Below are positions 1 through 13,704 of a stretch of 25,710 nt of DNA, piece by piece. The translations under genes and the position numbers were made by a program. This stretch comes from a virus, in IMG/VR virus record IMGVR_UViG_3300042321_000356, positions 1-25,710 of that record. The stretch is one strand, 5' to 3'. Each line of letters starts with the position of its first letter. The stretch's first letter is position 1. Below the pieces are notes generated by a model that had not been told where the DNA came from, did not search any database, and worked only from the letters and a program-made list of their open reading frames with translations.

Positions 1-362
1 TTGCCGCGCGCGGCTGCCGACCGCTCTAGCGCCTTCATGCCTTCCGCTTGGCGAAAAGCATAGCCGGGGTCTTGCTGGAATTGATCAGTACCAAAGGCTT
101 TCGCCATACTGCCGTAGCCAGCGGCGGTATTGTCACCGCCGATACCTAGTAGCCGCATAAGTTCATTTTGCGCGGTAAGGCCACCTTCACGAAATGGCGC
201 TTGCAGTTCCGTTTGCCGCTGGAACATCCGCTCCTGCGCTGCGGTCGCGTCTTGCGCCGCGCGCTCTTGCGTTGCTGCTGCTTTTTTAGCTGCTTTTCCC
301 GATATGGCGGCACCGCCAATTGCGGCTGTAGCTGTTATAGCTGCTGCTGCTGCTAGACCCAT
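1..362 (-). CDS. Phage DNA ejection / internal virion protein, N-terminal part (P22 gp7-like), cut by left edge
   Basis: The reading frame starts at ATG 362-360 and stays open for 120 codons to the window edge, so only the N-terminus is present. The protein begins with an Ala-rich apolar stretch (about residues 3-21, MGLAAAAAITATAAIGG), followed by a charged, Gln/Ala-rich helical region. It then has the motif FQQDPGYAFRQAEGMKALER, which I know from phage DNA-transfer (ejection) proteins of the gp7-like group. Such proteins are carried in the particle and help pass DNA through the envelope. The gene directly follows the sulfotransferase-GNAT gene (1 nt gap) at the end of the tail module, where P22-type phages keep ejection genes. 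The family call is inferred from motif and position; the C-terminal half is not visible. Confidence 0.72.
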   Translation of the reverse strand, partial: MGLAAAAAITATAAIGGAAISGKAAKKAAATQERAAQDATAAQERMFQRQTELQAPFREGGLTAQNELMRLLGIGGDNTAAGYGSMAKAFGTDQFQQDPGYAFRQAEGMKALERSAAARG

Positions 363-363
363 T

Positions 364-1431
364 TTACGCTTCCTTCAGTTGCAAACGGTACGCACTACCG
401 TGATCTTGCGCGCCGAGGCGCTTGTATAGCATGGAAATACGGGGGCCGGAACCCCTTTTCCCTGCCTCAAAAAACACTTCGTCAACCCCTTTATTTTTTA
501 GTTCTTTAATTGCTTCGCGTTGCAGTTTCAATCCCAGACCGGGGAACTCTGGCGACGCGAAGAATGTGGTGTTCGTAGCGGATAAAATGTCTGGGGAAGT
601 CAGCGACGGCGATATTAGCGTCATCAGATAACCAAACATACGACCATTACACCGCGCAGTCATTATCTGCATAGCGCCAACATTGTCCAGCGCGCGCATC
701 AGCGGCAAGTTTTTATTCTGCCAGTTGCCCGGTGTCTCGCCGACGCCCACAAGATGTTCGTCAAATAGCTTATCGGCATCCTGCACCCAGCTATCAAAGT
801 CTTCTGTCTGAAAAGTGATGCCTTCGGGCGGCTCGTCTACTTTCGGCGTTAGCGCCGCTATCGTCTGGTGTTTGGCAATCGACGCCAGCTTTTCCATCGC
901 TGGCGCGTATGCTGCATAGTGACGCATCATGGCTGGCATACTGATCTGGATGTTGACAGGCGCTATCTGCGCCCAATGCGCGGAGTCATGCGGCTGCTGA
1001 AGGCAATGCTCGAATACAGCAGCGCAAGTGTCTTCTTCATTCAGGCTGTCAAACGACACTGACAAGACGTTGGGCAACCGCGCCTCTATCTGGTCTAGGC
1101 TGCGGTCCAGCTTCAGCAGTACGGCGTCAAGTTTATCGCGGTCAAACTGCGTGCCGGGTATGCTCATCAGACTTTCAACAACTTCGTCGCGGGGCCGGCG
1201 TACAACCAGAACGCGGGCGTCAGGGGCAAACCGCTCTAGCAGTCTCCACCAAGGCGCGCCGGCTGTCTCCGCAGTGCCAATGTTAGGCTGCGAGAACCAT
1301 GCCTGCACATCGTCAAGGCTACGCATATGCCGTAACTCTTCGTGGCCGCACATCCATTCACCATAAGTCAGAAAACGGGACAGCCAAGCTGATCGCGATC
1401 TGGGTAATGAAAATACGACGAAGGGCGGCAT
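364..1431 (-). CDS. Sulfotransferase-like / GNAT acetyltransferase fusion protein
   Basis: This 355-aa protein appears to have two enzyme domains. Residues 1-190 look like a sulfotransferase: after a short beta strand comes a P-loop-like PAPS 5'-phosphosulfate motif (FSLPRSRSAWLSRFL, residues 7-21), and a strand plus arginines that fits the 3'-phosphate site (RVLVVRRPRDEVVESL, residues 73-88). Residues from about 200-355 resemble a GNAT acyltransferase: FPGLGLKLQREAIKELKNKG (296-315) fits the acetyl-CoA binding loop and helix, and MLYKRLGA (334-341) fits the usual end motif. The start overlaps the upstream stop as TAATG. It lies between tail genes and an ejection gene, so it may be made late and could act on a virion part or the host surface. 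Substrates cannot be read from sequence. The GNAT half is more certain than the sulfotransferase half. Confidence 0.75.
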   Translation of the reverse strand: MPPFVVFSLPRSRSAWLSRFLTYGEWMCGHEELRHMRSLDDVQAWFSQPNIGTAETAGAPWWRLLERFAPDARVLVVRRPRDEVVESLMSIPGTQFDRDKLDAVLLKLDRSLDQIEARLPNVLSVSFDSLNEEDTCAAVFEHCLQQPHDSAHWAQIAPVNIQISMPAMMRHYAAYAPAMEKLASIAKHQTIAALTPKVDEPPEGITFQTEDFDSWVQDADKLFDEHLVGVGETPGNWQNKNLPLMRALDNVGAMQIMTARCNGRMFGYLMTLISPSLTSPDILSATNTTFFASPEFPGLGLKLQREAIKELKNKGVDEVFFEAGKRGSGPRISMLYKRLGAQDHGSAYRLQLKEA

Positions 1432-1766
1432 TAGCTAACCAGACGGCCTGACGCGCGGATGTTGATGGCGGACGCCGTGCCAGCGATTGTGCTGATGAAG
1501 CCATTGTTAGGCAGCACATGACCAACCAGTTCAGGAAACGTATACGTCTCTGATGGCTGGAGCGTCTTGGTCTTAACAATCAAGTTGTCGTTACCGGCGC
1601 TGCCCGCAGCCGTCACAAGGTTGACGCTGATCGTCGCTGCGCTGACGCTGTAGTTAGTTGCGGTGAACTTGTCGATGATCGTCTGCACGCCGTTCGACGT
1701 GTACTGCGTCGTCTGGCTGTTCTCCGCTGTCTTAGCGGGAATGATGTTACTAATAGATACGGCCAT
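1431..1766 (-). CDS. Small beta-rich phage structural protein (111 aa), tail or head-tail region
   Basis: A 111-aa protein, rich in Thr, Ser, Ala and Val in alternating strand-like patterns, with no predicted membrane segment and no catalytic motif. The segment QTIIDKFTATNYSVSAATIS (residues 28-47) matches a pattern I recall from small conserved phage proteins encoded beside tail genes, in which a predicted beta-sandwich is repeated on the virion. Its start lies 1 nt after the stop of the 282-aa gene, and its stop overlaps the next ATG (TAATG), so it is translated with its neighbours. A surface or adaptor role is inferred from composition and place; no specific function is claimed. Confidence 0.65.
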   Translation of the reverse strand: MAVSISNIIPAKTAENSQTTQYTSNGVQTIIDKFTATNYSVSAATISVNLVTAAGSAGNDNLIVKTKTLQPSETYTFPELVGHVLPNNGFISTIAGTASAINIRASGRLVS

Positions 1767-1767
1767 A

Positions 1768-2616
1768 TTATGTCTCCAAAGAACTTATGTTGTCTGTCAC
1801 CGTCAAAATGATTGACGGAACGGAAGGGTGTACGGCAGACGCCGCTTCAGCTAACAAAATAACAGATGTGTCGTCCACTTCCCACATTAATTCGATGTAG
1901 TCGCCAGCGTTTAGTTGGATGACGTAATTCCATGCAGCCAAAATTTCAGCGTTATTACCTTGTATGCGGATTTGACCGGCGCTGTCAGGGACGTTAACGC
2001 CGTTCTTGCGTAACCATATCCACACCAAACCGACACCGCCCGCCGTTTTATCTAGCTGCGCGGAGAACTGCACGTTGTAGACATTTGGCCGGTCAACAAA
2101 GATGCGCGACGTTGGTGTGCCGCGGGTGACGCCTACCGACAAATCAGTGGTGTTGAACGTCATGGCGTAGGCTGTGTTGATTGCTGCCGCTGTCTGTGAT
2201 GTCGTGTCATAGAAAGAACCGTAGCGCGGCGACCGAAACTCTTTTGGTGGCGGCGACAGCGCCAGCGCCTGCAACTGCGATTGGATAACCGCGATGTCGC
2301 TTTCCGTAGCAGCCGGCGGCGTGACGCCGGTGGCCTGCGCCAGACTGTTTACCTTGGCATCCACGTCAGCCGTAGCAGAACAGCAGTCAGGGGCGCTTTC
2401 GGTTGTCTGCGCCAACGACTCCAGCATGGCGTCATAGGACGCTATCAGCGACGTAGCGTCCGGCGCTAACTCGACTTCGTCTTGGTTGGTCTGCGTAGCT
2501 GTCAACAGCGATAGGAAGAACCGATACCATTCACGGCTAATCGCGCCTGACCGTTCGTCGATCAGGGCCACACGCGGCGGCGTTAGCTGTGTAGGATTGA
2601 TCGGCGAATACGCCAT
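1768..2616 (-). CDS. Tail protein with C-terminal jelly-roll-like domain (282 aa)
   Basis: The N-terminus (LTPPRVALIDERSGAISREW, residues 11-30) is a short attachment-like motif common at the start of podovirus tail proteins, followed by WYRFFLSLL. Residues 40-120 are helical and Ala/Gln/Asp-rich, consistent with a coiled stalk. The C-terminal part (about 125-282) is beta-rich. It contains SPRYGSFYDTTSQTAAA, a segment YNVQFSAQLDKTAGGVGLVW and PSIILTVTDNISS, a set of motifs I recognise from widespread phage tail domains that fold as a C1q/TNF-like jelly roll. It follows the gp10-like gene with a TAATG overlap, the place where P22 has its tail needle gene. A tail tip or receptor-contacting role is likely but inferred. 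Confidence 0.68.
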   Translation of the reverse strand: MAYSPINPTQLTPPRVALIDERSGAISREWYRFFLSLLTATQTNQDEVELAPDATSLIASYDAMLESLAQTTESAPDCCSATADVDAKVNSLAQATGVTPPAATESDIAVIQSQLQALALSPPPKEFRSPRYGSFYDTTSQTAAAINTAYAMTFNTTDLSVGVTRGTPTSRIFVDRPNVYNVQFSAQLDKTAGGVGLVWIWLRKNGVNVPDSAGQIRIQGNNAEILAAWNYVIQLNAGDYIELMWEVDDTSVILLAEAASAVHPSVPSIILTVTDNISSLET

Positions 2617-4046
2617 TAGGCAGTCGTTCCGCTGAGCAGCAGTTCAGCGCCCATGATGTAAATCCGTACAGGGTCGGTGCCTGACACTTCGTAGACGCGG
2701 TCGCGTATCTTCATCGTCGCGCCAAGGCGGCGCCAAATGGTACGATAGCCAGAACGGCCAATACGGCCCATCGACTTCCAGTGTTCGCTGGACCATGTGT
2801 GCCCGCCGTCGTCCGACCAGCGCAGCATGGCTTGCGGATTGCTGCCTTGGCCGTTGTTCAGGCCCACGCCTGTCTCGCAGTCAAGCTGCATGGAGTGCTG
2901 GATAGTACGCGCAAGGTTGTTAGCGCCCGTCGGCAGCGCACGCCATGACCGCAGCCATTTCTGCGGTGCGCCATCGTCAGCGTATACGTTCAGGTCGAAT
3001 GAATAAATCTTGCCGTTCTGATAGTCGCCGACCACCGTAGTGGCGTTGAAGAACATCTGACTGCTGGCGCGGTGACGGTTAAACTCACCGTTAGCGAACG
3101 ACGCCCGCTCATGCCATGCGCCGGTGGCGACATCATACACCCATGTGGTGTTGGCGGTGGGGAAGTTCAGAACGTAGAAGCTGTGGCCGTCCTGCTGATA
3201 CGTGTAGCCGGTTGCGTCCGAAATGTCGGCATACTCTTGCATCTGCCATTCGATAGCGTGCGTAGACACACGCTGACCGATGTAGCCAGCGGCCCTGTAG
3301 ACGATCCCTTGACCGCGCGCGTCCTTGCCTAGCCAATAGACTTGATTGTCCATCTTGGCGATGCTGTACGGCGCCGCGCAGCCTAGTTCGTTGAACGCGC
3401 CTTGGATACGCGTCAGCGGGAAGTCGAGCAGCCCTGCGTCGTACCAGACTTCGGTCGAGTTGGTGCCGAACACCCACACTTCGCGGTGGTCAACAAATAT
3501 AGCGACCACATTGTCAGGGTTGCCTTCGGCGCTGGCAAACTCCAGCGGATCAACAGACAGGCCGTCAAGCAGCGATGTAACCCAGATTTTCTGCGTGCCG
3601 GGTTCGTTGAACGTAAAATAGCCGTCGATGTAGCCGACCGTGCCGGCGCCGGGGAAGTCAGGGTCGGTGATCTGCTGGAACACATCGGTGTTGGCGTTGT
3701 AGATGTAACCTAGCGGGTTAGCAGCTATGAATAGCTGCGTGCCGTTGTCAGCCATGCTGACAGGGCCAGTGCCGCCTACAGTGCCTTTGGCGACCGCGTT
3801 CCAGTTGCTGTCGATCTGATACAGCGTAGGGCCAGATACGGCATAGCCGTAGTCGCCATAGGTCCACAGCCCGCGGATAGGACCGATGCCAACAGTTGCT
3901 AGGGTAGTCAGCCCCGGCGCGCGCTGAAGGAACGCTGGTTCCTTGCCGCCTTCTGGGACAATCTCAGGAAATAGGTTAACCATGCGGTTGTCGGCGGCGT
4001 TGACGCTTCTAGCGACATACGCCGACCCAAGGATCGGCGTCTTCAT
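2616..4046 (-). CDS. Packaged DNA stabilisation protein, P22 gp10-like tail hub
   Basis: A 476-aa protein, close to the length of P22 gp10 (472 aa). It begins with LGSAYVARSVNAADNRMVNL (residues 6-25) followed by FPEIVPEGGKEPAFLQRAPG, the typical N-terminus of this family. Repeated Gly-Tyr-Trp blades follow (for example GPIRGLWTYGDYGYAV and DGYFTFNEPGTQKIWVTSLL), as expected for a beta-propeller. In P22, gp10 forms a hexameric ring below gp4, closes the portal channel after packaging and holds the tail needle. Here it directly follows the gp4-like gene (TAATG overlap), the same order as in P22, which supports the call. No truncation is visible. Confidence 0.88.
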   Translation of the reverse strand: MKTPILGSAYVARSVNAADNRMVNLFPEIVPEGGKEPAFLQRAPGLTTLATVGIGPIRGLWTYGDYGYAVSGPTLYQIDSNWNAVAKGTVGGTGPVSMADNGTQLFIAANPLGYIYNANTDVFQQITDPDFPGAGTVGYIDGYFTFNEPGTQKIWVTSLLDGLSVDPLEFASAEGNPDNVVAIFVDHREVWVFGTNSTEVWYDAGLLDFPLTRIQGAFNELGCAAPYSIAKMDNQVYWLGKDARGQGIVYRAAGYIGQRVSTHAIEWQMQEYADISDATGYTYQQDGHSFYVLNFPTANTTWVYDVATGAWHERASFANGEFNRHRASSQMFFNATTVVGDYQNGKIYSFDLNVYADDGAPQKWLRSWRALPTGANNLARTIQHSMQLDCETGVGLNNGQGSNPQAMLRWSDDGGHTWSSEHWKSMGRIGRSGYRTIWRRLGATMKIRDRVYEVSGTDPVRIYIMGAELLLSGTTA

Positions 4047-8241: not shown

Positions 8242-9783
8242 TTAAGCGCGGACAAATTCGATTGATTGCACGAAAATATCCGCCGTCGTTGTTGCGCGGG
8301 TAAAATAAGCACCAAACAGGCTGCTAACAGCGGGTGCAACTACAGTGCCGACCAGCGTTGTTGTGTAGCTTGGTAACAAGGATACGGCGGTCAACGGGCC
8401 ACCAGCGCCGAAGCCGACAGCGTAAGAAGCGTTTAGCGTTTCAGATGACGGTGACCGAGCGGTAATGTAAACTTCATAGCTTACACCGACTTGAAGCGGA
8501 TGCAAAACGGTTGCGCTCACCTTTGGCAGCATAACAAAGAAAGGTGAGTTAGCCCCTGTCATAGTCGGTTTAATGACTATAGAGTCGCTCCCATTATATC
8601 CACATTCTTCGCCAGCGTCATTTGTGAAAAATCCTGCGTTCGGGGCTACATTTGACGCACTCAGCGTTGCGCCAGTGAGAGTGGCGACAGCGCGTTCAGT
8701 GTTGCGAAAGCCGTTATAGTTTGTGGTTGAAGGCACAACTATATCATAGTTGGCTGTATGCGTTGGGTTAAACACAAGGCTAAGATAGCTGCCTTCAATT
8801 TTTAACAGCTTTCCTTCAACCGCCGGAACACCTGTTGTCCCCGGATCATACAGTTTAACACTGCGTGCTGGGGTGTCGCCATCCAGATAAAATACGAAGT
8901 CAGTGTACTCACCTTGTCCGTCTGTACGGTTGTCTACACATACAATCGTGAACGGTGACGCAGGAACATTTGCGCCATATTGCGGGCATCCAATGTTCGT
9001 CATATCAATAGCGCCGACGGCTGGTTCACCAGCAGCCTGTTCGATATAGTTATTGTAAAGCCGCACATGGAGAGAACAGGTCTTAATGTGAGTTCCGCCA
9101 GCGTCGGCCATAACCAAAATATCGTTGTTTTCGATATGGTTTTGCGAACCGAAAGTGCCTGTGCTGATTTCAAGGATGTTATAGCTGGTAGCGTATGCAA
9201 TCCTGTTTACAACTACACGGCCAATGTCGCAGCCCTGCATCATTAAGTTAATGTCAAAACGTTGAATTTTGCAGTTTTCGATTACAAAGCCGAATACTTT
9301 ACTCATGGAAATGCCAGTGCCGACACCGTCTGAACGGGCAATCAGAGAGCAGCTACGGATGACAGGCTTCATGATAAACGGTGTAGGGCCGACTTCGGCA
9401 ATCGTTTTGGTTTCGTCGTTAAGCCGAATTGGAAAATCAGCCGAAAGACGCAGATTTTCAATGGTAACGCCGTCAATCTGTTGAGATGGAGCGGTAACAT
9501 CCTGAACCATTTGAAAAATACCGCTGCCAACAACAACGTTATTGATTATAGAGCCATCATCAAACTCGCCGCCGTTCGAGCCAAAAACGTGTTGGCCGGG
9601 GCGCAACTGAATAGGCGCAGTAACTTTATACACGCCTTCAGGCACAAACACTTCTAAGTTTGCCGCAACCGCAGCAACGAAAGCTGCCGTGCTGTCTGCA
9701 ACGCCAGTAGAGTCAGCGCCATAGTCCAGCACGTTTGCTGGAGCAGACTTAATCATCGAATATGTGGCTTTGGTCAGCGTCAT
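8242..9783 (-). CDS. Tailspike-like protein with right-handed beta-helix (pectate-lyase-3-like), 513 aa
   Basis: Residues 17-40 (ANVLDYGADSTGVADSTAAF and on) are the pectate-lyase-3-type entry motif, in which an NVLDYGA segment leads into a beta-helix. Short repeated strands follow, with Asn/Ile/Val stacks such as VIENCKIQRFDINLMMQGCD and NHIENNDILVMADAGGTHIK (about 165-230). The last ~150 residues (from about 360) look like a separate beta-sandwich, possibly carbohydrate-binding or for trimer formation, ending in IFVQSIEFVRA. It lacks the P22-like head-binding N-terminus seen in the 788-aa spike, so it probably attaches through another tail protein. Such spikes often cut capsule or O-antigen, but no catalytic residues can be assigned. 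An AAAGG ribosome-binding site precedes the start. Confidence 0.8.
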   Translation of the reverse strand: MTLTKATYSMIKSAPANVLDYGADSTGVADSTAAFVAAVAANLEVFVPEGVYKVTAPIQLRPGQHVFGSNGGEFDDGSIINNVVVGSGIFQMVQDVTAPSQQIDGVTIENLRLSADFPIRLNDETKTIAEVGPTPFIMKPVIRSCSLIARSDGVGTGISMSKVFGFVIENCKIQRFDINLMMQGCDIGRVVVNRIAYATSYNILEISTGTFGSQNHIENNDILVMADAGGTHIKTCSLHVRLYNNYIEQAAGEPAVGAIDMTNIGCPQYGANVPASPFTIVCVDNRTDGQGEYTDFVFYLDGDTPARSVKLYDPGTTGVPAVEGKLLKIEGSYLSLVFNPTHTANYDIVVPSTTNYNGFRNTERAVATLTGATLSASNVAPNAGFFTNDAGEECGYNGSDSIVIKPTMTGANSPFFVMLPKVSATVLHPLQVGVSYEVYITARSPSSETLNASYAVGFGAGGPLTAVSLLPSYTTTLVGTVVAPAVSSLFGAYFTRATTTADIFVQSIEFVRA

Positions 9784-11171: not shown

Positions 11172-13538
11172 TTATAGATTGCCAGTACTTACCCATGTTC
11201 CGGGGGTTCCCGCTACCGTACACATCCAACCTTTAGGTTGACCAACCGCAGGTGTGCTGTTCGCAGACTGATCTCCGACATCCCATGCGCCCGTTGCGGG
11301 AGCAGCAGTAGTTTGCCATGTGAACTTATCACCTAGTCGAGTCACAATTCGTCCAACAGTAGCGCCGCCCAGAGCAGCTCCTGACACTTGTGTCGTGACA
11401 TTAATGAAGCGGTTGTCTACAAGCGGGATAGTGTGGTTTCCAGTAGTTCCCGAAATCATAAACCCAGTGTTGCAATCGCGGAACGTATTGCGTTCGTATA
11501 TATAGTTAGGTGATCGTCCGGTAGTATAATATTGGGCTGCATAGAAGCCGTAGTAGAAATTATCTATTTCGTTATCAATTATGCGGGCATTTTCAGTTTG
11601 CGATGAAATTCTAATTCCGGCGTTTTGATCGCTCACCGTTGTGTTGTCATTTCCAGTAATCCGATTTCCTTTGACAACCAAAGTGCGCGTTGAAGCCTGC
11701 ATATCTATTGCAATACCGGTAACGGCGCTACCAGACGTGCGAACAATACGATTACGAACAATGTTATGCCCTGCAATGTTTGCGTTTCCAGCATTTGGGA
11801 CCACACTAATGTCATTACCGACATTGCTCAAGAATGTGTTGTCCGCAACTTCTACAAAAGCACTGTTGGTCGTAAGCACTAAGCCTTTGCCAAGTGACCC
11901 TTGGACAGTGTTGCTGCGTATTGACGCGGAGATAACAGGAGCAGTAGTAGCATTAACAGTGATGCCGCCTGTGTTTACGTTTGTATTTTGAAAGCGCGAT
12001 ATATAATTTCCGACAACTTCTTCGTAGCCAGACTGGACAAAATAGATTCCGCCAGAAAGAGTATTGGCCGTGTCATAGCCGTTTAGATCGCAAATGTTAT
12101 TAGCAATGATAACGGGACCAGACGAAACGCCTTGCTTATAAATGCCTGTCCAGCGTGTGTTGCGGCAAACATTTCCTGACACAACGGTGCGGGGGCCGGA
12201 AACTGTGCTTGAGTTATAACCGATAACAATCCCATGCCGCCTGTTTCCGCCGGTTGCGGCCAACGCCCACGTCCCTGTTTCCGTGCAGGTTGTAGTGTCA
12301 AGCGTTACGCAAGTATTGTTGGATACCAAAATGTCGCCGTCATACCCAAGAGCGTCAATAAAAATGCCTTGGCTGTTATTAGACAGGCAGAAATTGCCGT
12401 CTATGATGTGACGTTCCGATGCTCCTGACGAGTAAAGTAAAATATCTGATGCTGAAGCTGCCGTCGAAACACCTGACGTAAACTTACCGCCATAGATACG
12501 GTTGCCACGAACTACGCTGTTTTGAACATTGCGGATGTGAACGCCGACGCCGCCGAGATCGCCCAGTTCTAGAAAGCAATCCAACACAGATAGATTGTTT
12601 ACCGCAGACGCATAAACGCAGTTTACAAAATCAGTGTCGTTTCCGTCCGCAACTTTCATGCGAAGCGCACGAAACGTATTGCTGTTACCCGCGATAAATA
12701 CATCTTTGTTCAGTGTAACTTGCTGGATAAGACTATCCCAGCCATCGCCATAAACCGTGACGCCGTTTGGTACGGTTATGTCGTCAGTAATTTTGTAATA
12801 TGTTGTTGTCGCAGGGACATATACAGCCGCCACGCCGTTGTTAACCGCAGCCTGAATAGCAGCCGTATCATCAGCCGCACCATCGCCAACAGCGCCGAAG
12901 TCCTTAACCGAGACGTACTGGGCTAATTTATTTTCGACGTTAGTAGCAACACTACCTGTAAAGGGTGGGGAATATCCGACATCTGATGCGTCTACAGCCC
13001 CTGTAGATACAGAAATAGCGGTCGTAAACTTCACTTCTCCGCCGACATGTACGCCAGACGTAAACGTCACGGTGTCGCTGTCCGTTTCAAGATAGCTGTC
13101 GCCGACATACTGGTTCACGCCGTCGATGTAGACCGTCAGCGAGTTAGTGCCGGGCGTGTAATTGATCGTCGAAAGGTTAAACACAGTCTGGCCGGCGGTG
13201 GCCGTAATGACTTCTTCCTGCACCGTGTAGTTGACGAAGTTCGAGTTGACGCCGGTAATGTTATCGTAAGTGCCAAGCAGGATGCCTGTCGCTGTTTCGA
13301 TGACAAACTTATAGACCAGACCGTCAGTCAGCCAAATCTCACCGCCCGGTACGCGTCCTGCGCTATCCAGAATGATGGGGTTGCTGTGCGGCGTAGCGCC
13401 TGACGCGCTGGTATACGTTGCCTGCGGCGTAGTTGTGCCGGCTGCATAGGTATAAATCTTGCCGCCCGACAGGATAACGCCGTTATTGTCGAAGAACTGC
13501 GCTGCGAAGCCGCCGATGGGTGAGGGGGTTACTGACAT
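11172..13538 (-). CDS. Tailspike with P22-gp9-like head-binding N-terminus and beta-helix body (788 aa)
   Basis: I take ATG 13538 as the start because a GGAG site lies 8 nt upstream and the N-terminus then reads MSVTPSPIGGFAAQFFDNNG, as in gp9-type head-binding domains. The longer frame from 13697 would overlap the 53-aa gene. Residues 1-100 form the particle-binding domain (NNGVILSGGKIYTYAAGTT, PIILDSAGRVPGGEIWL). Residues 106-180 are a second small domain (ATAGQTVFNLSTINYTPGTN). SVKDFGAVGDGAADDTAAIQ (210-229) then opens a right-handed beta-helix of pectate-lyase-3 type with many VVRGNRI/VISGNVC-like coils up to about 700. The protein probably trimerises and digests or binds host polysaccharide. 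It is the only one of the three with a head-binding domain, so it likely anchors the others. Confidence 0.85.
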   Translation of the reverse strand: MSVTPSPIGGFAAQFFDNNGVILSGGKIYTYAAGTTTPQATYTSASGATPHSNPIILDSAGRVPGGEIWLTDGLVYKFVIETATGILLGTYDNITGVNSNFVNYTVQEEVITATAGQTVFNLSTINYTPGTNSLTVYIDGVNQYVGDSYLETDSDTVTFTSGVHVGGEVKFTTAISVSTGAVDASDVGYSPPFTGSVATNVENKLAQYVSVKDFGAVGDGAADDTAAIQAAVNNGVAAVYVPATTTYYKITDDITVPNGVTVYGDGWDSLIQQVTLNKDVFIAGNSNTFRALRMKVADGNDTDFVNCVYASAVNNLSVLDCFLELGDLGGVGVHIRNVQNSVVRGNRIYGGKFTSGVSTAASASDILLYSSGASERHIIDGNFCLSNNSQGIFIDALGYDGDILVSNNTCVTLDTTTCTETGTWALAATGGNRRHGIVIGYNSSTVSGPRTVVSGNVCRNTRWTGIYKQGVSSGPVIIANNICDLNGYDTANTLSGGIYFVQSGYEEVVGNYISRFQNTNVNTGGITVNATTAPVISASIRSNTVQGSLGKGLVLTTNSAFVEVADNTFLSNVGNDISVVPNAGNANIAGHNIVRNRIVRTSGSAVTGIAIDMQASTRTLVVKGNRITGNDNTTVSDQNAGIRISSQTENARIIDNEIDNFYYGFYAAQYYTTGRSPNYIYERNTFRDCNTGFMISGTTGNHTIPLVDNRFINVTTQVSGAALGGATVGRIVTRLGDKFTWQTTAAPATGAWDVGDQSANSTPAVGQPKGWMCTVAGTPGTWVSTGNL

Positions 13539-13542
13539 CAAA

Positions 13543-13704
13543 TTACTCCAGCAGCAACAATCCGCCGTCCTCTTGGACGAGGTTGTCTCCGTTTTCAGTT
13601 TCGAGGTTGCCCTGCGCTTGATCCGGACCATAGCCAGAAAAAAACGAGATAATGCTGCCCAGACCGAGCGCAATACCGTTACGAAGGGCGCCACCAAACC
13701 CCAT
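13543..13704 (-). CDS. Short hypothetical protein before the tailspike (53 aa)
   Basis: A 53-codon frame from ATG 13704 to TAA 13543, sitting 3 nt after the 101-aa gene and 4 nt before the tailspike start. The tailspike ribosome-binding site lies within its last codons. The product starts with a Gly-rich apolar part (MGFGGALRNGIALGLGSIIS then FFSG, residues 1-24), possibly one short membrane-interacting helix. It ends with an acidic half (NLETENGDNLVQEDGGLLLL). Small proteins of this shape lie beside fibre genes in several podoviruses. Function unknown. The exact fit between neighbours argues for coding. Confidence 0.5.
   Translation of the reverse strand: MGFGGALRNGIALGLGSIISFFSGYGPDQAQGNLETENGDNLVQEDGGLLLLE

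Follow-up and report, generated by a model that had tools for sequence, protein, structure and literature searches.

The window, the whole 25,710-nucleotide stretch of viral DNA analysed here (IMG/VR record IMGVR_UViG_3300042321_000356, positions 1 to 25,710), has the layout of a P22-type podovirus and encodes a 355-aa protein in which a predicted sulfotransferase-fold domain is joined to a predicted GNAT-fold domain. The frame is a real gene, far beyond chance, and we consider it probable that both halves are active transferase domains, a judgement that covers no particular target.

The fusion gene lies among late virion genes

A preliminary description of the window had placed one fused protein of these two kinds among late virion genes, and the gene order bears this out. 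The fusion gene and its neighbours are as follows:

3..362, minus strand: DNA-ejection protein, next gene downstream, cut by the window end (phrog_598, E 2.9e-19)
364..1431 with the stop counted in, minus strand: two-domain fusion gene, 355 aa (translation, homologues, dN/dS)
1431..1766, minus strand: 111-aa protein, upstream of the fusion (one-base stop/start overlap, TAATG)
1768..2616, minus strand: 282-aa protein without PHROG match
2616..4046, minus strand: P22 gp10-like head closure protein Hc3 (phrog_578, E 2e-132)

Upstream of the fusion lie the Hc3/gp10-like gene and the Ad3/gp4-like, major head protein, scaffold, portal and terminase genes, and downstream lies the ejection gene. The stop of the fusion and the ATG of the ejection gene are one base apart, which together with the TAATG overlap puts the fusion gene within one tight operon. 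Two pectate-lyase/beta-helix-like genes of the window, likely tailspikes (8242-9783 and 11172-13697, minus strand), sit between the scaffold and portal genes rather than closing the tail module.

The opposite (plus) strand across 364-1431 has stop codons throughout. Among 37 complete fusion homologues with 90-100% identity to the window gene, we found no internal stop, and the median dN/dS of the window gene against them was 0.09 (0.10 for the N half and 0.06 for the C half). These results place the frame far beyond chance and show that purifying selection acts on both halves. The motifs named in the preliminary description were found at their residues, FSLPRSRSAWLSRFL at 7-21, RVLVVRRPRDEVVESL at 73-88 and MLYKRLGA at 334-341.

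The fusion is widespread in metagenomic viral DNA

Profile-guided pattern scans of IMG/VR found stretches encoding N-half relatives, 306 in one scan and 391 in another; the two overlap, and 80 loci were kept from each for examination. Both halves stood in one frame in 196 of the fetched locus frames, a count of frames and not of distinct viruses, as contigs were in some cases retrieved repeatedly. Where a frame held a single half, this was explained by contig-end cuts, known stand-alone relatives, the locus L144 or an extra GNAT in L185, which has a second, stand-alone GNAT besides its fusion. A single frame holds both halves in homologues down to ~50% identity, and we rejected a misreading of two genes as one, since among these metagenome loci only L144 has an uncut N half alone. 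This natural sulfotransferase-only version (L144:3986-4573) lacks the GNAT half, has Ser12 changed to Cys, and is directly followed by the ejection gene. Long stop-to-stop frames in L090, L093, L097 and L099 had hinted at a triple fusion, which was also rejected, because the upstream stretches resemble noncoding open frame.

The full fusion was not found among 50,697 isolate phage records, a set from which records near the window were possibly left out, and querying with a stand-alone relative gave no match. In GTDB, four genomes carried the fusion or part of it, namely three metagenome bins and the isolate Azospirillum rugosum, whose genome carries the full fusion. The N and C halves diverge in a correlated way (Mantel r 0.81, p 0.0001), a pattern that fits an old fusion inherited as one unit; shared phage ancestry also adds to r.

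The N-terminal half is predicted to have a sulfotransferase fold

For conservation analysis we used an alignment of 28 fusions, comprising the window protein itself and members 49-92% identical to it. The features of the N-terminal half are as follows:

847..1431, minus strand: sulfotransferase-fold domain, residues 1-195 (Pfam, AlphaFold, PDB fold matches)
1384..1404, minus strand: candidate 5'-PAPS loop PRSRSAW, residues 10-16 (conserved; Arg11 the candidate essential cation)
1342..1350, minus strand: CGH, residues 28-30, with His30 as candidate catalytic base (invariant 28/28; role from position)
1171..1197, minus strand: candidate 3'-phosphate-binding motif, Arg79 to Ser87 (both invariant; inside the Sulfotransfer_3 match)

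Pfam Sulfotransfer_3 was matched by 18 of the 28 family members (best E 2.8e-7) and Sulfotransfer_4 by 8; the window protein itself matched Sulfotransfer_3 over residues 63-116 with E 5e-4 and 20.8 bits, below the gathering cut-off of 27 bits. AlphaFold modelled residues 1-195 alone with a pLDDT of 92, and the whole protein, from the 28-sequence input, with a mean pLDDT of 88. The first 13 PDB fold matches of residues 1-195 were human TPST1 and TPST2 and a tick TPST (E 2e-5 to 4.5e-4), and the first 18 were all PAPS sulfotransferases, the TPSTs followed by others. Taken together, the profile matches and the model indicate a sulfotransferase fold, in agreement with the domain type first proposed. 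The TM-scores against the TPSTs were modest, at 0.50-0.56 by query length, so that the comparison places the domain in the superfamily and does not assign tyrosine specificity. A phmmer match to a designed helix bundle came from a short repeated helix and was disregarded.

Three residues are described as essential in sulfotransferases, a positively charged one in the first of two PAPS motifs, a Ser in the second, and a His or Glu that lies between the motifs and acts as the base (PMC6637879). Arg11, Ser87 and His30 fit this rule. All three were invariant in 28/28 fusions and were still kept after two stand-alone phage relatives (~28% identity) were added; Ser12, Trp16 and Arg79 were kept in these relatives as well. 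Within the loop, Pro10, Arg11, Ser12, Arg13 and Trp16 were invariant in 28/28 fusions. We infer His30 as the base in preference to the invariant Glu55 from its position between the two PAPS motifs. Arg13 stands at the place of a Gly in many sulfotransferases, which counts against catalysis.

The preliminary description had named assignment to another P-loop family, for example a kinase, as the result that would speak against a sulfotransferase. Stand-alone relatives are annotated as 'nucleotide triphosphate hydrolase', phrog_10855 is labelled hydrolase, and gluconokinase, shikimate kinase and NRK1 occur among the weaker fold matches. However, the loop LPRSRSAW has no Walker A GK[ST], the first kinase (shikimate kinase) appeared only at fold rank 19 behind the PAPS sulfotransferases, the only consistent profile matches were the sulfotransferase Pfam models, and one of the stand-alone relatives is itself above the Sulfotransfer_4 cut-off. 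We therefore ruled out a kinase or generic NTP hydrolase on the loop sequence and the fold ranking, and regard another P-loop enzyme as highly improbable.

The C-terminal half is predicted to have a GNAT fold

The features of the C-terminal half, which had also been described as a GNAT domain, are as follows:

367..822, minus strand: GNAT domain, residues 204-355 (phrog_1249, E 1.6e-5; GNAT PDB folds)
517..540, minus strand: candidate acetyl-CoA loop GLGLKLQR, residues 298-305 (G298 and G300 invariant)
409..432, minus strand: MLYKRLGA, residues 334-341, GNAT motif-B-like with Tyr336 (Y336 in 26/28; R338 and G340 invariant)

The phrog_1249 acetyltransferase profile was matched by 21/28 members, Pfam Acetyltransf_1 was above its cut-off in the fusion of the Azospirillum rugosum prophage (L135), and the leading PDB fold matches of the full-length model were GNATs. 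These matches indicate that residues 204-355 fold as a GNAT. Gln304 and Arg305 of the loop were nearly invariant in the 28 fusions. In the acetyl-CoA loop pattern Arg/Gln-x-x-Gly-x-Gly/Ala, the first place is here taken by Pro297 and the sixth by Lys, and the Pro at the first place makes acetyl transfer less certain than the fold.

It had also been suggested that only one half might be active, and L144, whose slot holds just the N half, gives this some natural support. The sulfotransferase half would then be the sole enzyme and the GNAT half a structural, docking or dimerising module. The degenerate acetyl-CoA loop and the additional stand-alone GNAT of L185 point the same way, but by dN/dS the C half is under stronger constraint than the N half, and its GxG and Tyr336 are kept. 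We regard a non-enzymatic GNAT half as unlikely.

The gene position is kept across divergent phages

In most of ~40 divergent loci, the fusion directly precedes the phrog_598-type ejection protein or an analogous gene, and it keeps this slot even between backbones with structural proteins just 30-40% alike. In pairwise comparisons the fusion was more alike than Hc3 in 153/171 locus pairs and more alike than the ejection protein in 158/171. A freely mobile cassette was not supported overall, as the identities of the fusion and Hc3 correlated across 19 loci (Spearman 0.85). Single decoupled cases were found, with Hc3 at 67% and the fusion at 92% in L037, and Hc3 at 90% and the fusion at 67% in L085.

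The nearest isolate phage is DSL-LC05, whose portal is 70% identical to that of the window. The fusion profiles had no match in the DSL-LC05 genome or in MW202483. In DSL-LC05 the slot between the homologue of the 111-aa protein and the ejection protein is occupied by a small protein assigned to tail-fibre families, indicating that the fusion gene is accessory. This slot gene (L046:16317-16790, minus strand) has a short-tail-fibre family match and by eye resembles a cupin-type small enzyme fold. DSL-LC05 also has a tailspike gene at the same place as the tailspike-like pair of the window. Between the fusion and the ejection gene, two loci carry a gene of the aspartyl/asparaginyl beta-hydroxylase family PF05118 (L110:7035-7580 and L142:5029-5574), and the L185 slot, read by eye, has an aspartyl/asparaginyl hydroxylase-like gene too. 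The PF05118-family genes beside the fusion suggest that the slot may collect protein-modifying enzymes.

The fixed position could also suit a protein in which neither half is catalytic and which helps to assemble or scaffold the tail/ejection machine, as suggested for T7 gp13. T7 gp13 is a probable scaffold protein according to Pfam, and a cobavirus GNAT at this place has been likened to it (PMC6775973). On the other hand, conservation is highest at the residues that catalysis would require, the fusion members match phrog_1249 and not the phrog_308 of gp13, one contig (L107) has a phrog_308 gene besides the fusion, and the nearest isolate phage does without the fusion gene. A purely scaffolding role is thus very unlikely, and an identity of the fusion with T7 gp13 was rejected because the profile families differ and L107 carries both. 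The gp13 homologue of that contig lies at L107:1721-2137.

Proposed function and target

With both halves active, the protein would be a compact PAPS-dependent sulfotransferase, with a predicted fold nearest to the TPSTs, joined to an acetyl-CoA-dependent GNAT. It would presumably be a late enzyme translated from the tail/ejection operon, would rely on the host for PAPS and acetyl-CoA, and would modify one substrate or two linked ones. The fusion itself, its conserved motifs, selection and gene order are observed and the two folds predicted, while catalysis, the two cofactors and late expression are inferred. The Azospirillum rugosum genome encodes APS kinase and can thus make PAPS. A search of 16 virus records, fragments among them, found no APS kinase. 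A phage would take its PAPS from the host.

As to the target, our guesses are spread. It is possibly a virion tail or ejection protein made alongside the fusion and just as possibly a host protein; a glycan or small molecule is guessed to be a little less probable. The lean to a protein comes from the nearest folds, which are protein sulfotransferases, and from the virion-protein neighbours, and is a weak argument. The sugar target first proposed was not supported, the nearest folds being those of protein-tyrosine sulfotransferases, though this is weak evidence for a protein. The full reading, a phage protein sulfotransferase with linked acetylation that sulfates tyrosines of a phage ejection or tail protein or of a host protein, is rather doubtful.

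Such a sulfotransferase-GNAT fusion was not found in the open-licence literature. Both domain kinds are already known in phages, whereas their joined, conserved form is apparently undescribed, and to our knowledge no phage enzyme has been established to sulfate proteins. The family is widespread, its candidate catalytic residues are intact, its gene keeps one position and a second modifying domain is attached, which opens the question of its function to direct assay. If a protein is modified, sulfation would be added to the chemistry by which phages alter virions or hosts.

Comparison with known systems

TPST1/TPST2 and Xanthomonas RaxST resemble the predicted fold of residues 1-195 and share the Arg in the first PAPS motif, the Ser in the second and the His/Glu base between them (PMC6637879). 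The N half is much shorter than these, with 195 residues against ~270-330 in the matched chains and a modest TM-score, and only in the fusion is a GNAT joined. The stand-alone proteins of phrog_10855 and phrog_38824 (Abidjanvirus, Sanovirus) are homologues of the N half with ~28% identity and the same Arg/His/Ser, but they are not fused, and in siphovirus genomes their genes lie amid those for nucleotide and DNA metabolism. In Stenotrophomonas phage Bhz60 (L048, 2195-5558), a stand-alone sulfotransferase-like gene lies ~2 kb from a gene annotated as cysteine dioxygenase, which may point to a link with sulfur chemistry. Sulfotransfer_3 proteins of unclear function were reported from OM43 phages and cyanophage S-SRM01 (PMC10580990); unlike the window protein, no GNAT fusion is reported for them.

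For the C half, the closest counterpart is the Zobellviridae GNAT of phrog_1249 (Vibrio phages 1.209.O and 1.015.O), a homologue with ~30% identity. Like the fusion it lies between head-completion and ejection genes, but it has 151 aa and no sulfotransferase half. T7 gp13 (phrog_308, PF11090) occupies a comparable place just before the internal virion (ejection) proteins and belongs to another profile family. Rac, a GNAT of phiKMV-like phages, is encoded next to structural genes and was reported to trigger cleavage of the host RNA polymerase alpha subunit (PMC7552054); it resembles the fusion in its place but is not fused. T7 gp13, in virion morphogenesis, and Rac, in host modification, are thus precedents for the position of the fusion, neither being of the same family.
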